From NCBI GenBank assembly GCA_018303115.1, contig JAGVYT010000018.1, positions 1 through 35,256 of the forward strand: a stretch of DNA of 35,256 bases, read 5' to 3'. The notes beneath the pieces are model-generated. The model worked only from the letters and a program-made list of their open reading frames with translations. It did no database searches and had not been told where the DNA came from. Every line of letters begins with the position of its first letter. The stretch's first letter is position 1. The DNA comes from Candidatus Woesearchaeota archaeon. Lineage in GTDB: Archaea; Nanobdellota; Nanobdellia; Woesearchaeales; UBA10216. The position numbers were made by a program, and so were the translations under genes. This document shows positions 1-27,118 of the stretch, piece by piece.

Positions 1-104
1 GCACTAAGAAGCGCAAAGCGCTTCTTATGACTAAGAACCACCAGTCTATGCTAACATAATGTTAAATCCCACCAGTCTTTGACTGGTGGTTCTTTAGAAT
101 TTGG
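1..104 (+). mobile_element. Partial hairpin element, right-end type (E3)
   Basis: The sequence shows a 9-bp hairpin (AAGAAGCGC/GCGCTTCTT) followed by a perfect 14-bp inverted repeat, AAGAACCACCAGTC (33-46) with GACTGGTGGTTCTT (81-94). A second CCACCAGTC at 69-77 can pair with the same right arm through a ttt loop, so two foldings compete. The ends CTAAGAACCACC and GGTGGTTCTTTAGA are shared with E1 (3889-4008) and E2 (26861-27003), while the inner stem bases differ but still pair. It is probably the right end of the same element family, cut by the window edge. No transposase is seen here. Confidence 0.6.
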
Positions 105-586: not shown

Positions 587-3109
587 ATGCCAAGGAATAA
601 AGCAATAGTTGTTGAAGAAGAGGAGGTTGTTGAGTTGGGCAGGGAAAGCAATGTAAAAGAGACCAATGTTAATGAAATACCCGGAGTAGGGGCAGCTACC
701 GCTGAAAAGCTTATAGCTTCTGGTTATGATAACCTGCTTAGCATAGCGGTTTCCTCTCCCAGGGAGCTTGTAGGGCTTGCCGGAGTTACAGATGTTGTTG
801 CAAGGAAGATGATTCAGTATGCCAGGCAGAAGCTTGACCTCGGCTTTGAGTCAGGGGAGGATGCCCTTAAGAAGAGGGAGAGCGTTGAGAAAATATACTC
901 TGGAAGCAAGGCTTTGGACTCGCTTCTTGGCGGGGGTTTCGAAACGCGGGCTATAACAGAAGCCTTTGGGCAATACGGGAGCGGCAAGTGCGTATCAAAA
1001 GATACAAAGGTGTTGTATTTTAACAGCTCAAAATCGCACCTACAGCCAATAGAGGATGTTTATAACAAATACGCTGCTATGAATGGTGAGAAGCCGTTTG
1101 ATAATGGTTGCATAGTTGAAGTGCCTCAAGTAAGAGTCCTGGGCCTTACAGATGAAGGACTGGCTAGAACCAAAGCGACTGCCATATACAGGGAAAAAGT
1201 TCCAAAGCTGATAACTGTTAAAACAAAGCGCGGCAGGACTATTAAGATAACACCATCACATAAACTGCTAAGCTTTGACAATGGCATGCTATGGCAGCCA
1301 TCCGCAACGCTTCAGGCTGGAGCAGTAATTGCTCATCCAAAGGAAATAAGTGCAATCTCAGGATGCAATTTAACATCTGACGACGCATATTTTCTTGGTC
1401 TATTTGCAGCAGAAGGCACTTCAAACCCTTTATCGATATCAACTTCTTCAGTTGAGTTGAAAGATTGGGTTGCTAGCTATATCGAAAGAAAATTTAATTA
1501 CAAGCCTACGGTAAGGAAAGATACTAGACGGGAAACGCCAGCATATTATATACTCTTAAGAACCGAAACAGCGCTTTTCCTCGATAAACTTGGCACTTCA
1601 CATTCAGTTTCTAAATTTGTTCCGGAAAGCATTTTTGGAGCAAACGAAGGAGTAACCTCTGCTTTTCTGGGGGGTTATATGGATGGCGATGGTCATTACG
1701 GTAAGCTTACAGCAGAGGCAACTACAAAAAGCAAGGAACTTAAATCTGGACTAGCCTACCTATTCGCAAAATTAGGTATTACAGTAACATCAAGAAAGAA
1801 GGAAGTTAATGGCGATACTTTCTACAGGCTTAGCGTGGTAGGTGATGACAAAAGGAATTTACCGAAAATAATATCAAAAATAAAGAATTTTAGCTACTTG
1901 CCTAAGAACAGCAGCTACGGCTACCCTGTGCCGTTTATCAATTATGTAAAAAAAGTCTATAAGGAAACTCTTGGTGGCAATAGGGGAAGAACTGGCAAGG
2001 CTATTGGCAATAAGGATATGCGTGGCAATTTTTTCTACGAATATTTGGCAGGCATAAAAGCCCCTGCAGATGTTATGAATGAAAAAACTATGGAGGCTAT
2101 AAGATTGGCATTTTTTAACGGGCTTAAAGATTTATTGAGCGCGAGGGAAGCAATAGTAAATCTTGAAAGCCGGTCACAAAGCGAGTTTGTTAAAATGATA
2201 AATTCTTTGCCCTTTGCTTTCAACTCAATAGCGGAAAATATTGGCTTAAAAAAAGCAGGCATAAGGAATTATATGAGTAGAGGTATTGCCCCCCACAAAA
2301 TGGAATCATTGAAGAAAGTTCTTATTGACGAGATAGAAAAACGAAGCATAAAATTAGAATCTGCTCTTAAAACAATCAAAAACTTTGTTTATCTAAACTG
2401 GGACGTTGTTGAGCAAATTCAGGAGATTGATTATGATGATTACGTATACGACTTTGTTGTTCCAGAAGGACACAGCTTTGTTGGCGGAGAAATGCCAACT
2501 ATAATGCACAATACCCAGATTGGGCATGCTATCGCTACTAACTGCTTAAAGCAGTATCCGGATTCTTATGTTGTTTACATTGATACAGAATCCACGTTCA
2601 GGCCGGAGAGGATTGTTTCCATTGCCAAGAACATTGACTTGGATCCGGCTAGTGCGCTAAAAAGGATTAAAGTTGCCCGTGCTTTCAATTCAGACCACCA
2701 GGTTATACTGGCTGAGAAGGTTGAGGAGCTGGTAAAGCAGGGCTTGAACGTAAAGCTCGTGGTTGTTGACTCTCTAACAGCCCATTTCAGGGCGGAGTTT
2801 ATCGGCCGGGGCACTTTGGCTGACAGGCAGCAGAAAATAAACAAGCACCTGCATACTTTAATGAAGCTTGCTGAGGTGTACAACCTTGCGATTTACGTAA
2901 CCAACCAGGTTATGGCAAGGCCTGACGTGTTTTTTGGAGACCCGACAGAGGCCATTGGCGGGCATATAGTCGCGCATGCAACAACTTATCGCATGTACTT
3001 AAGGAGGGGCAAGAAGGGCTCCCGCGTGGCAAAGCTTGTTGACTCCCCTAACCTGCCAGAGGCAGAGGCAGCGTTCTATCTGGATGAAGTAGGCTTGAAG
3101 GATGTTTAG
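587..3109 (+). CDS. radA: DNA repair and recombination protein RadA (intein-containing precursor)
   Basis: RadA is the archaeal RecA/Rad51 strand-exchange ATPase that forms filaments on single-stranded DNA. The 840-residue precursor has a helix-hairpin-helix N-terminal domain (VNEIPGVGAATAEKL, about 28-80), then the RecA core. Walker A, GQYGSGK-TQ, is split after Lys134 by a 508-residue intein; removing it gives 332 residues, the usual RadA length. The C-extein holds the Walker B strand KLVVVDS, loop L1/L2 residues near TNQVMARPD, and a normal end. The ATG at 587 has GAGGTG five bases upstream. A TTTATAT sequence at 569-575 is too close to serve as the promoter of this start, so the gene probably shares a transcript with the 85-aa gene. 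Activity should depend on splicing because the P-loop is broken until then. Confidence 0.97.
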   Translation: MPRNKAIVVEEEEVVELGRESNVKETNVNEIPGVGAATAEKLIASGYDNLLSIAVSSPRELVGLAGVTDVVARKMIQYARQKLDLGFESGEDALKKRESVEKIYSGSKALDSLLGGGFETRAITEAFGQYGSGKCVSKDTKVLYFNSSKSHLQPIEDVYNKYAAMNGEKPFDNGCIVEVPQVRVLGLTDEGLARTKATAIYREKVPKLITVKTKRGRTIKITPSHKLLSFDNGMLWQPSATLQAGAVIAHPKEISAISGCNLTSDDAYFLGLFAAEGTSNPLSISTSSVELKDWVASYIERKFNYKPTVRKDTRRETPAYYILLRTETALFLDKLGTSHSVSKFVPESIFGANEGVTSAFLGGYMDGDGHYGKLTAEATTKSKELKSGLAYLFAKLGITVTSRKKEVNGDTFYRLSVVGDDKRNLPKIISKIKNFSYLPKNSSYGYPVPFINYVKKVYKETLGGNRGRTGKAIGNKDMRGNFFYEYLAGIKAPADVMNEKTMEAIRLAFFNGLKDLLSAREAIVNLESRSQSEFVKMINSLPFAFNSIAENIGLKKAGIRNYMSRGIAPHKMESLKKVLIDEIEKRSIKLESALKTIKNFVYLNWDVVEQIQEIDYDDYVYDFVVPEGHSFVGGEMPTIMHNTQIGHAIATNCLKQYPDSYVVYIDTESTFRPERIVSIAKNIDLDPASALKRIKVARAFNSDHQVILAEKVEELVKQGLNVKLVVVDSLTAHFRAEFIGRGTLADRQQKINKHLHTLMKLAEVYNLAIYVTNQVMARPDVFFGDPTEAIGGHIVAHATTYRMYLRRGKKGSRVAKLVDSPNLPEAEAAFYLDEVGLKDV
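989..2512 (+). mobile_element. RadA intein with LAGLIDADG homing endonuclease
   Basis: The intein covers precursor residues 135-642. Cys1 starts block A (CVSKDTKVLY), block B has TPSH (in KITPSHKLLS), block F reads YDFVVPEGHSFVGG and block G ends with IMHN, so the terminal His-Asn is present; the +1 extein residue is Thr. Two LAGLIDADG helices, FLGLFAAEGT (about intein residue 134) and FLGGYMDGDGHY (about 226), retain acidic residues, so the endonuclease may be active. A helix-rich insert follows them, with a possible helix-turn-helix near SIAENIGLKKAGIRNYMSRG. The insertion point, GSGK/TQ, is the known RadA P-loop site of other archaea. The intein DNA looks more AT-rich than the exteins, which fits horizontal acquisition. 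Confidence 0.95.
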
Positions 3110-3433: not shown

Positions 3434-3796
3434 ATGAAATATTTTCTGGATACTTACGCTTTAATAGAAATTGCAGCGGGCAATAATAAATACGAAAAAT
3501 TTTTGGAAAGTGATGCGGTCACTTTAAAGGACAATCTGGCGGAACTATTTTATTTTTTGTTAAGGAGGTATGATGAGAAAACAGCTAATCTTTTTCTTAA
3601 TAAGTTTTCCAGGTTAATTGTTGAAGTACCTTTTGCAATCATTTCCAAAGCAATGATATTCCGGTATCGCAATAAAAAAACAAAATTTTCCTACATTGAT
3701 TGCTTTGGGTATGTTTATGCTTTAGAGAATGAAAGATTCTTTTTAACTGGTGACAGGGCATTTAAAGGCATGAAAAATACGGAATTAGTTAGGTGA
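3434..3796 (+). CDS. PIN-domain ribonuclease toxin (VapC-like)
   Basis: This is a 120-residue single-domain PIN protein. Four conserved acidic positions are visible: Asp6 (FLDTYAL), Glu37 (NLAEL), Asp89 (SYIDC) and Asp107 (LTGDRAF). PIN toxins use these to hold Mg2+ or Mn2+ and cleave RNA, often tRNA or rRNA; the target of this one cannot be read from sequence. It follows the AbrB-type antitoxin after one base and should be translated from the same message. The length fits a small VapC-type toxin and all active-site residues are present, so it looks intact. Confidence 0.88.
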   Translation: MKYFLDTYALIEIAAGNNKYEKFLESDAVTLKDNLAELFYFLLRRYDEKTANLFLNKFSRLIVEVPFAIISKAMIFRYRNKKTKFSYIDCFGYVYALENERFFLTGDRAFKGMKNTELVR

Positions 3797-3843: not shown

Positions 3844-4440
3844 ATGGACGCAATTGAGCAAGCACAAGAATTTGAAAGAATTCTTAAAATGTCAGAATTT
3901 TCCATCAGTCTATGACTGATGGCAAGCTTCGCTTGCTGTTGGTATTTTGCAGACTGGAAAATTCTGAGCACTAAGAACCACCCCGTCTCTGACGGGTGGT
4001 TCTTTAGAACTGCACAAGCTTATGGCCTGAGATTAGAACTTATGGCTAGAAGAAATCAAATTCTTTCTAACATACATAGCGTAGAGGATATTAATACTGT
4101 AGCAAGAAGTCTTCTAAATGTGCTTGAAAAAGAAAGAAGAATCATAAATATTATTTTGAGTGAGGACGAATTAGAAAGAAGAAATATCGATATTGCTATA
4201 GATACACTATTTAAAGTGAGGAAAGAGCCTGCCATAATAGATGAACTGAAAAGGCGAAATATCGATTTTGAAAAATTAAGAGAGGCCGCAGGAATTGGTT
4301 TAACAATATTGAAAGGGATGGCAAAAAGACTGAAGCACATTATAAGAAGAATTGAACTTAAGGAAGCATTGATTAGCAATCCGACATCTCAAAATTTCAA
4401 GAATTATTTAAAGCAGTGGGGCAGAGATATTGTATTATAG
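3844..4440 (+). pseudogene. Helical protein gene interrupted by structured element E1
   Basis: The ATG at 3844 opens MDAIEQAQEFERILK and is then broken by the 120-bp element E1 (3889-4008), which brings an in-frame TGA at 3913-3915. Downstream the same frame resumes as TAQAYGLRLELMARRNQ and continues to 4440. Cutting E1 out exactly joins the parts into a 158-residue protein. The ORF track start at 3919 lies inside E1 and is not a natural start. The protein is rich in charged helices, includes an ELERRNIDI/ELKRRNIDF near-repeat, and has no membrane segment. I do not recognise the family. A shortened product could start at ATG 4042 (MARRNQ). The gene is AT-rich, like the neighbouring toxin-antitoxin pair. 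Confidence 0.7.
3889..4008 (+). mobile_element. Structured hairpin-cluster element E1
   Basis: This 120-bp element folds as a perfect 12-bp outer stem TCAGAATTTTCC (3892-3903)/GGAAAATTCTGA (3956-3967). The stem encloses two hairpins, ATCAGTC-tat-GACTGAT and GCAAGC-ttc-GCTTGC. A third hairpin follows, AAGAACCACC...GGTGGTTCTT (3973-4004). E2 at 26861-27003 is a near copy in the other orientation; E4 shares the architecture. It has no ORF of its own and no long terminal inverted repeats. Subterminal hairpins without inverted ends resemble non-autonomous IS200/IS605 or REP-like elements, but no Y1 transposase is present in the window. It interrupts a coding frame. Confidence 0.8.
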
Positions 4441-14026: not shown

Positions 14027-14130
14027 GGTCCTGTCCTAAATCCTGTTCGTGTAGCTACTGCATACCCTCAAACCTGTTCTCCAAAACTTCTATGACCACT
14101 CTATGGCTCACATACGGCAGAGCAGGAGGG
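14027..14130 (-). mobile_element. Partial MITE-like element, right end (GGCGTTGTCC family, copy c)
   Basis: Positions 14032-14130 match 27015-27113 in reverse orientation over 99 bp with two mismatches. The outer end GGTCCTGTCCTAAA (14027-14040) resembles the GGCGTTGTCCTAAA terminal repeat of the full copy at 26808-27118. The match covers the last codons (LLLCRM and stop) of the GT-C gene at 14108 and stops abruptly upstream of them, so the gene end seems to be built from this element. Confidence 0.75.
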
Positions 14131-17509: not shown

Positions 17510-17642
17510 GGCTCTGTCCTGAGACTTTGCTTGCACCTTTTGTAGCTCTCCTTCTTTACTTTCCCACTCCTTGCTTTGCAGAGGAGGGGGAAAGTAAAAA
17601 GGAAGCGATAAACATGCGAGAAAGCGCTTTTAGGACAACGCC
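17510..17642 (+). mobile_element. MITE-like element (GGCGTTGTCC family, copy b)
   Basis: The right end TTTAGGACAACGCC (17629-17642) and about 25 bp inside it (GGAAGCGATAAACATGCGAG) match the left end of the copy at 26808 in reverse orientation. The left end GGCTCTGTCCT (17510) is a weaker inverted match. An 11-bp perfect inner stem, TTTACTTTCCC (17555-17565)/GGGAAAGTAAA (17588-17598), fills the middle. It has no ORF, and no target duplication was found. It occupies most of the gap between the epimerase and carbamoyltransferase genes. Confidence 0.6.
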
Positions 17643-17656
17643 TAAACTATAGAAAA

Positions 17657-17664
17657 GTTTAAAA
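17657..17664 (+). promoter_or_regulatory. TATA-like box for the carbamoyltransferase operon
   Basis: GTTTAAAA is centred 28 bp before the ATG at 17689. Confidence 0.5.
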
Positions 17665-17688
17665 AACAGTTGAAACGTTTTCTTCTTT

Positions 17689-25032: not shown

Positions 25033-25544
25033 ATGTCAAAACCACTGCGGGCTAATGTCAGAAATGTCAGGAACAAGTTCCTGAGCACCATCAGAAGCAT
25101 TAGCTTCTGAGGCCAAATGTTTCTGAGCACAGTCAAAAATGGAGTATTTTTGATGAGCCCACAGCGTGCGGTTTTAAAGCTAATGATAGTGTCACTAATC
25201 GGAAGCTCCAGCACAACCCTGCCAAAGGAAAATAAAGCCCAGTTGAAAAAAGCTATTAATATGACCAGTATGGAGAACTGCACAAAACGGAACTGCAGGT
25301 TTGTTTTAATCCTGAACGTAACAAGAACGTGGTAAACAAAAGTGAAAACAATTGCAAAAAACATGCCGATGCCGTAGGAAACAGCTGGATGCAAGGAATA
25401 AGTATCTCGGAAAAATATGTGAGAGCCGATAAGTATAAGCCAGCCGATAAGGCCGCCAAAGACGAATATCAAATAGCGCCTGACAGTGCCAAAAAAAGAC
25501 TCGCCAGTCAGGCGGTGCTGGTAATGCAAAGCCCTTCTAATCAT
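24978..25544 (-). pseudogene. GtrA-like membrane protein, truncated at the 3' end by E4
   Basis: The 188-codon frame has a normal GtrA-like start. RYLIFVFGGLIGWLILIG (TM1), YGIGMFFAIVFTFVYHVLV (TM2) and FVQFSILVILIAFFNWALF (TM3) are clear. After about residue 115 the sequence stops looking like a membrane protein: it runs through the antisense of element E4 (25057-25156) and into the 58-bp repeat. The usual fourth segment is missing. GtrA proteins are thought to help flip polyprenyl-phosphate sugars and often pair with DPM1-like transferases such as the next gene. The product is probably non-functional or altered. Confidence 0.7.
25057..25156 (+). mobile_element. Structured hairpin-cluster element E4
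   Basis: An outer stem TCAGAAA (25058-25064)/TTTCTGA (25120-25126) encloses two hairpins, TCAGGAAC-aa-GTTCCTGA and TCAGAAGC-atta-GCTTCTGA. A third hairpin follows, TCAAAAAT-ggagt-ATTTTTGA (25133-25153). This is the layout of E1 and E2, and the left edge (AATGTCAGAA) and TTCTGAGCAC are identical to theirs, while the stems differ. It interrupts the 3' part of the GtrA-like gene. The right boundary is uncertain. Confidence 0.65.
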
Positions 25545-26807: not shown

Positions 26808-27118
26808 GGCGTTGTCCTAAAAGGGCTTTCTCACATATTCTCGCATGTTTATCGCTTCCTCTAAAGAACCACCCGTCAGAGACAGGTTGGATTATGTGAC
26901 TATTGTGATGGGTGGTTCTTAGTGCTCAGAATTTTCCAGTTTGCAAAATGCCAACAGCAAGCGAAGCTTGCTATCAGTAATAGACTGATGGAAAATTCTG
27001 ACATTTTACCTCCTCCCTCCTGCTCTGCCGTATGTGAGCCATAGAGTGCTCATAGAAGTTTTGGAGAACAGGTTTGAGGGTATGCAGTAGCTACACGAAC
27101 ATGATTTAGGACAACGCC
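26808..27118 (+). mobile_element. MITE-like element with perfect 14-bp inverted ends (copy a), carrying nested E2
   Basis: GGCGTTGTCCTAAA (26808-26821) and TTTAGGACAACGCC (27105-27118) are a perfect terminal inverted repeat enclosing 311 bp. There is no plausible ORF. The left interior matches 17510-17642; the right 99 bp match 14032-14130. The middle is E2, which must have entered later. No flanking target duplication is obvious. It fills most of the 478-bp gap between the aminotransferase and the GT-C gene at 27241; the rest of the gap holds the GGTAAT-family copy c and two promoters. Confidence 0.75.
26861..27003 (-). mobile_element. Structured hairpin-cluster element E2
   Basis: On the minus strand this 143-bp element is a near copy of E1: the same outer stem TCAGAATTTTCC/GGAAAATTCTGA, the GCAAGC-ttc-GCTTGC hairpin, then CTAAGAACCACCC...GGGTGGTTCTTTAG. 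It is longer than E1 because the third hairpin has an extra stretch of about 25 bases in the loop. In its first inner hairpin the terminal pair has changed (ATCAGT/ACTGAT still pair). It lies inside the MITE-like element 26808-27118. Confidence 0.8.

Follow-up and report, generated by a model that had tools for sequence, protein, structure and literature searches.

Few descriptions exist of mobile elements from Woesearchaeota and other DPANN archaea. According to a 2018 survey (PMC6006769), Archaea have only IS200-type Y1 proteins. IS608 has its guide on the 5′ side of the hairpin; a second left-end hairpin, common in the family, has been described for IS608, ISDra2 and IS605 (PMC5934647). Further relevant precedents are the palindrome-associated transposable elements (PATEs) of Haloquadratum walsbyi (PMC3119063).

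We uncovered in a Woesearchaeota genome a family of 110-175-nt repeats that very probably are non-autonomous IS200/IS605-type elements, which a Y1 (HUH) transposase acting in trans would move as folded single-stranded DNA. Our search of the open-licence literature recovered no published description of this family in Woesearchaeota. It is an order-wide variant of PATE-like IS200/IS605-type elements, unusual for the bulged frame around it, in which the guide is paired, and for its nested sister class. Like PATEs (PMC3119063), these elements have no transposase, near-terminal palindromes akin to those of IS200/IS605-type transposons, a short left target, no target duplication, and insertions into other mobile elements. 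Unlike PATEs, they have a second, bulged double-hairpin frame around the end hairpins, and one model finds them in more than a third of an order's sampled genomes. The combination of near-terminal palindromes with no transposase gene, terminal inverted repeats or duplication holds for the subtype prototyped by the copy E1; the absence of such repeats, as claimed in the preliminary description of this DNA, is thus right for that subtype, whereas in the canonical relatives across the order the ends form a short, imperfect TGTCA/TGACA pair. With IS608 and ISDra2 the family shares left and right subterminal hairpins, the second left-end hairpin, a short left-flank target, insertion free of duplication, and guide-like bases 5′ of the left hairpin; it differs from them in containing no tnpA, in its target, TAAAA, and in the placement of the guide within an outer stem (P1, below).

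Copies and distribution of the family

The window analysed here, 35,256 nt in length, is contig 7 of a 45-contig, 0.99-Mb genome. It bears four elements, scored with a covariance model (CM) built from 19 copies:

3890..4007, plus strand: E1, full-length copy of 118 nt, TGTCAG...TTCTTTAG; short form, with the right-end inner hairpin collapsed onto the outer stem; CM 120.5 bits, E-value 2.6e-26
26861..27003, minus strand: E2, full-length copy of 143 nt; CM 137.4 bits, E-value 3.1e-30; empty sites known
1..97, plus strand: E3, right half of a copy, the rest cut off by the contig start; an extra 27-nt hairpin module at about 5-31; CM 53 bits
25034..25175, plus strand: E4, of a related class; nested double-hairpin array with the right half lost; a 48-nt hairpin-pair unit inserted at about 25065-25112, from alignment with L062, L073 and L085

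The existence of the repeat family is confirmed: E1 and E2 stand as full-length copies with the borders given above, and ATGTCAGAA occurs 64 times in the genome as against 10 times for its reversed control. E3, likewise reported earlier, is indeed a right half, to which the extra module has to be added; composites of the same kind are seen at G000:C12 and C8. For E4 the previously proposed common architecture holds in part: it shares the bulged-hairpin frame (TGTCA...TGAGCA) and lacks both E1-type end hairpins, scores weakly in the covariance model (E = 0.001), and has lost a right half that is evident in the copies at C9, C18 and C26. The contig start falling inside E3 also illustrates that the element breaks assemblies.

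In sequence searches and extracted stretches, which underlie all counts for the window's own genome, E1 recovers 25 pieces there by BLAST and has matches in 12 of the 19 genomes of the family. The covariance model matches 107 of the 287 genomes that were sampled from the order; two of these, searched more fully with it, gave 39 and 43 matches. An exact-pattern scan of named genomes returned 26 stretches, of which 19 belong to Candidatus Woesearchaeota; the rest do not contain the element and appear to be chance matches. The pattern matches in IMG/VR were chance. Searches of plasmid and phage DNA gave no match to the element.

Two genes of the window deserve mention. A PIN-domain protein, possibly a VapC-like toxin, is encoded just upstream of E1 (3434-3796), and a RadA/Rad51 gene (590-3106) is split by an intein with a LAGLIDADG domain.

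Anatomy and fold of the element

From left to right, the host TAAAA is followed by TGTCAGAA, TTTT, the hairpins P2 and P3, a variable linker, the 3′ arm of P1, GCA, and a right-end outer stem that encloses an inner hairpin, CCACCNGTC-TNT-GACNGGTGG, before the terminal TTCTTTAG. The element starts with TGTCAG and ends with CTTTAG (TTGACA in most relatives); the terminal right-end sequence of most order-wide relatives is TTTTTGACA or TTCTTGACA as opposed to the TTCTTTAG of the E1 type. The parts are placed in E1, and the target in E2, as follows:

3885..3889, plus strand: target or left-flank pentamer TAAAA (CL-like; host DNA outside the element), the consensus over 36 copies, pre-existing at the empty sites of E2 and the C35 copy
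3898..3901, plus strand: TTTT directly 5′ of the left-end hairpin, guide-like in its sequence and complementary to the A-run of the target
3902..3922, plus strand: P2, left-end hairpin CCATCAGTC-TAT-GACTGATGG, which folds like Y1 left-end hairpins and covaries
3922..3936, plus strand: P3, second left-end hairpin by fold computation, with a counterpart in IS608/ISDra2/IS605 (PMC5934647)
3892..3967, plus strand: P1, outer stem with arms 3892-3901 and 3958-3967 and a bulged G before the closing TG/CA pairs, from the covariation comparison
3971..4007, plus strand: P4, right-end hairpin CTAAGAACC...GGTTCTTTAG, with the putative right cleavage site at its end; 26/33 match to the DNA directly 3′ of a Y1 stop codon
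27004..27008, minus strand: target TAAAA of E2, from unoccupied copies of its host repeat

Both P1 and the outer right stem have one bulged base before the closing pairs, and in the relatives they form an inverted pair, with P1 reading TGTCA..TGAGCA and the outer right stem TGCTCA..TGACA. The T-run layout recurs in the A1/A2 copies, with TTTTCC, and in the Y1 elements L134 and L135. As to coding capacity, the element was said to have no ORF: it has no mobility gene, but an ATG at 3919, within E1, opens a read-through ORF of 173 aa.

Against dinucleotide shuffles the folds of E1 and E2 reach z of about -7 to -10 with either RNA or DNA parameters, and those of nine copies about -4.5 to -10 (RNA) and -5 to -10 (DNA). 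Across the 19 copies, changes on both sides are seen in 4 of the 8 pairs of P2 and 4 of the 9 pairs of the inner right hairpin, and 96.6% of the cells pair, against 28-48% for slid controls; P1 is nearly invariant in this set, with compensatory changes at several of its pairs in the order-wide copies. The earlier remark that the stems differ and still pair extends across genomes, and both tests named beforehand, further copies and stem covariation, have come out positive. Because correction between hairpin arms could add to the covariation, we do not take covariation alone as proof of selection.

Insertion site and mobility

Evidence for movement comes from E2, which lies within a copy of another repeat, one with terminal inverted repeats GGCGTTGTCC. 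This host repeat reads, in its unoccupied copies, AAGTAAAA/AGGAAG (C11) and GTATAAAA/GGAAG (C8, C23), whereas the occupied ones read GGTAAAA/TGTCAG...CTTTAG/AGGAAG (E2) and GTATAAAA/TGTCAG...CTTTAG/GGAAG (C35), with slashes at the junctions; E2 and the C35 copy are two independent insertions at the same spot. This comparison of filled and empty copies shows that TAAAA was there beforehand, that the element goes in immediately 3′ of it without duplicating the target, and that both ends are fixed. The empty sites, showing no duplication, led us to discard a DDE-type MITE. The host repeat itself belongs to a family with many copies in the genome (L173-L179), each about 170-200 bp long and bounded by the inverted repeats GGCGTTGTCC.../...GGACAACGCC, seen in the window at 26808-27118, 14032-14130 and about 17600-17670.

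The left flanks of 36 distinct copies give the consensus TAAAA (T in 27/36, then A in 33, 33, 36 and 36, such that positions -1 and -2 are A in every copy); part of these copies were found with an AAAA-containing pattern, and the unselected evidence is that of the copies found by BLAST or the model and of the empty sites. We also considered E1 as the interrupter of a gene and dropped this idea, as no homologue was found in the family and the flanking frames do not join with the TAAAA target.

Copies are found at unrelated sites and on either strand, and two genomes of the same genus (G017, G018) are without the copy at the orthologous loci. A copy from another genus is 99% identical over 99 nt, as against about 67-74% for homologous genes, which points to recent, perhaps horizontal, movement. 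A case in point is L025 (G014:C3:6513-6655), nearly identical to copies of the window's genome although the genera differ, which suggests horizontal movement; G014 has no Y1 match. Along a 732-kb contig of G127 the orientation of the copies switches (p ~0.003-0.007), as a lagging-strand preference could give; in G197 orientation has no consistent relation to GC skew.

These observations bear on two readings that dispense with transposition. The covarying fold, strong and stable also with RNA parameters, is what a structured non-coding or regulatory RNA conserved for its RNA function would present, and the element can indeed be mistaken for one. However, it has no Rfam match, its copies are scattered over both strands and missing from the G017 and G018 loci, its insertion at TAAAA is precise and duplication-free, and its ends are in common with a transposon; hence we hold the RNA option of the preliminary description to be very improbable. 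A search for tRNA and tmRNA also returned nothing. Alternatively, template switching and arm correction might make and homogenize the stems, giving covariation in the absence of selection, with recombination spreading the copies. Such palindrome dynamics would accommodate the L016 copy (G000:C11:21924-22070, minus strand), in which the interior of P1 (P2 and P3) has the opposite orientation to that in other copies, as though it had been turned round between the arms, the 9-nt tandem duplication of the C22 copy, and the E3 hairpin module inserted beside a repeated TAAGAA; they may account for part of the covariation. As they fail to explain the precise insertion at TAAAA at unrelated sites, the fixed ends and the match to Y1 ends, we give them next to no credence as the whole account.

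The link to Y1 transposases

The left-nearest and right-end hairpins of the element match both end hairpins of IS200-type (Y1) transposons from the same order of archaea. The only Y1 gene found in the window's own genome (C23:157-651) is intact and codes for a protein of 157-165 aa with the HVH motif and the IS200-class Y...Q motif (YIRKQ); it is recognized by Pfam Y1_Tnp at 57.5 bits. Its relatives of solved structure are the transposases 2fyx, 2xm3, 2xma and 2xo6, which we take to be Deinococcus IS200/ISDra2 proteins. Immediately downstream of its stop codon lies AATTCCGCCGGTCTCTGACCGGCGGTTGTTTAA, which agrees with E1-type right ends at 26/33 positions, and when the right-end motif was run over 1.4 million positions, the inspected matches of at least 22/33 were either element copies or DNA just 3′ of a Y1 gene. 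On the left side, element and Y1 hairpins share CCA(t)NNNGTC-TNT-GACNNNTGG with compensatory changes; the same hairpin type recurs at the left ends of Y1 elements elsewhere, of which those of L134 and L135 also have the same TAAAA and T-run. The element is more frequent in genomes with a Y1 match (41 of 65) than in those without one (66 of 222; Fisher p = 1.4e-6, uncorrected for phylogeny). The 66 genomes that carry the element and gave no Y1 match, among them G014 with its recent copies, count against the link.

The proposed search for a Y1 gene with the same flanks was borne out at the right end of the own gene, but not in full: that gene has no recognizable left end and no TGTCA-type element hairpins at its flanks, no Y1-bearing element with exactly E1-type ends was found among the genomes of the order that were searched, and beside the Y1 genes of the family E1-type ends were seen only as a decayed copy near that of G002. 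Presumably, the elements are mobilized by Y1 in trans. Together with the exact empty sites and the TAAAA target, the end hairpins shared with Y1 transposons favor the non-autonomous IS200/IS605-type option over the others raised earlier.

At three contig ends of G005 (C1, C3, C5; L187-L189) we observed only the last 33 codons of a Y1 gene and its right end, reflecting either contigs broken within the transposon or truncated copies. With regard to target choice, TTTT fits TAAAA, whereas subfamilies with ATA before the hairpin (targets TTATA and TTAATA) follow no simple guide/target rule, and a general pairing rule sought across the subfamilies did not emerge.

A related double-hairpin class

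The bulged frame also occurs on its own, in short units of the form TGTCA-hp-TGAGCATGCTCA-hp-TGACA without the IS200 hairpins, which insert precisely, mostly after TTGA(A/C/T)A, and have the right end TTGACA. Counts of their center, TGAGCATGCTCA, are 16 in G018 and 7 in G000, against 0 for the control. In G018 such an element (L192; C1, ~99335-99477), following TTGACA, splits a large gene for a PMT_2-like membrane protein near its start, and the orthologues in G000 and G017 are uninterrupted, representing the empty site. A variable left flank beside a constant right end makes duplication of the target unlikely for this class.

These units could be read as the actual mobile entity: the inverted bulged hairpins (TGTCA..TGAGCA and TGCTCA..TGACA) would constitute a REPIN-like unit of a REP-type system, with the IS200-like hairpins as later passengers. 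Their independent existence and precise insertion, their own flank preference and the interrupted gene in G018, where a Y1 search gave no match, fit this proposal. Like REPINs and BIMEs with RAYT (PMC3116915), the family has paired inverted bulged hairpins, is gene-less and reaches many copies. However, that inverted layout is present in the double-hairpin frame only; the E1-type target (TAAAA) is different and E1-type right ends match those of Y1; the family is archaeal, with asymmetric ends, a distinct left target and no sign of the conserved REP tetranucleotide; no RAYT (class 2 Y1) gene was found, the own Y1 gene having the IS200-class motif and flanks devoid of TGTCA-type hairpins; and the archaeal Y1 repertoire surveyed in 2018 is confined to the IS200 type (PMC6006769). 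The REP-like option thus captures the layout of the frame and fails for the enzyme, and we consider it unlikely.

Proposed mechanism of transposition

Returning to the IS200/IS605-type reading, the T-run 5′ of the left hairpin would act as the guide by pairing with TAAAA, and the Y1 protein that cuts and joins the ends might be the product of C23:157-651 or a lost relative. As the guide lies in the stem P1, this stem would have to open before target pairing; P1 and the outer stem of P4 would derive from a separate hairpin-pair element and may hide the guide until TnpA binds. More tentatively still, the whole could be an archaeal single-stranded DNA transposon system born of a fusion between IS200 ends and a bulged double hairpin of REPIN type, with P1 locking the guide until TnpA binds, the double-hairpin class (target TTGANA, right end TTGACA) being a second mobile family that nests in hairpins by means of the same or an unknown enzyme; we regard this as possible, though doubtful. 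With a family that appears order-wide and recently active, and with its ends, target and likely enzyme class defined, transposition is directly testable. A stem-locked guide and nested units are relevant to the movement of single-strand transposons and of the enigmatic small archaeal repeats.

Nested hairpin-pair units

Hairpin-pair units of 48-51 nt are nested in E4 and its relatives with exact borders and no duplication. Their likeness to the SMR-A repeats of Haloquadratum (PMC3119063) offers a lead: these too are short, have inverted terminal repeats, cause no duplication and insert into hairpin elements, although the nested units are about half as long and are likened to them by description. 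The nesting is stepwise, with none in L062, one in E4 (window 25034-25175) and two in each of L073 and L085; L066 belongs to the same series.
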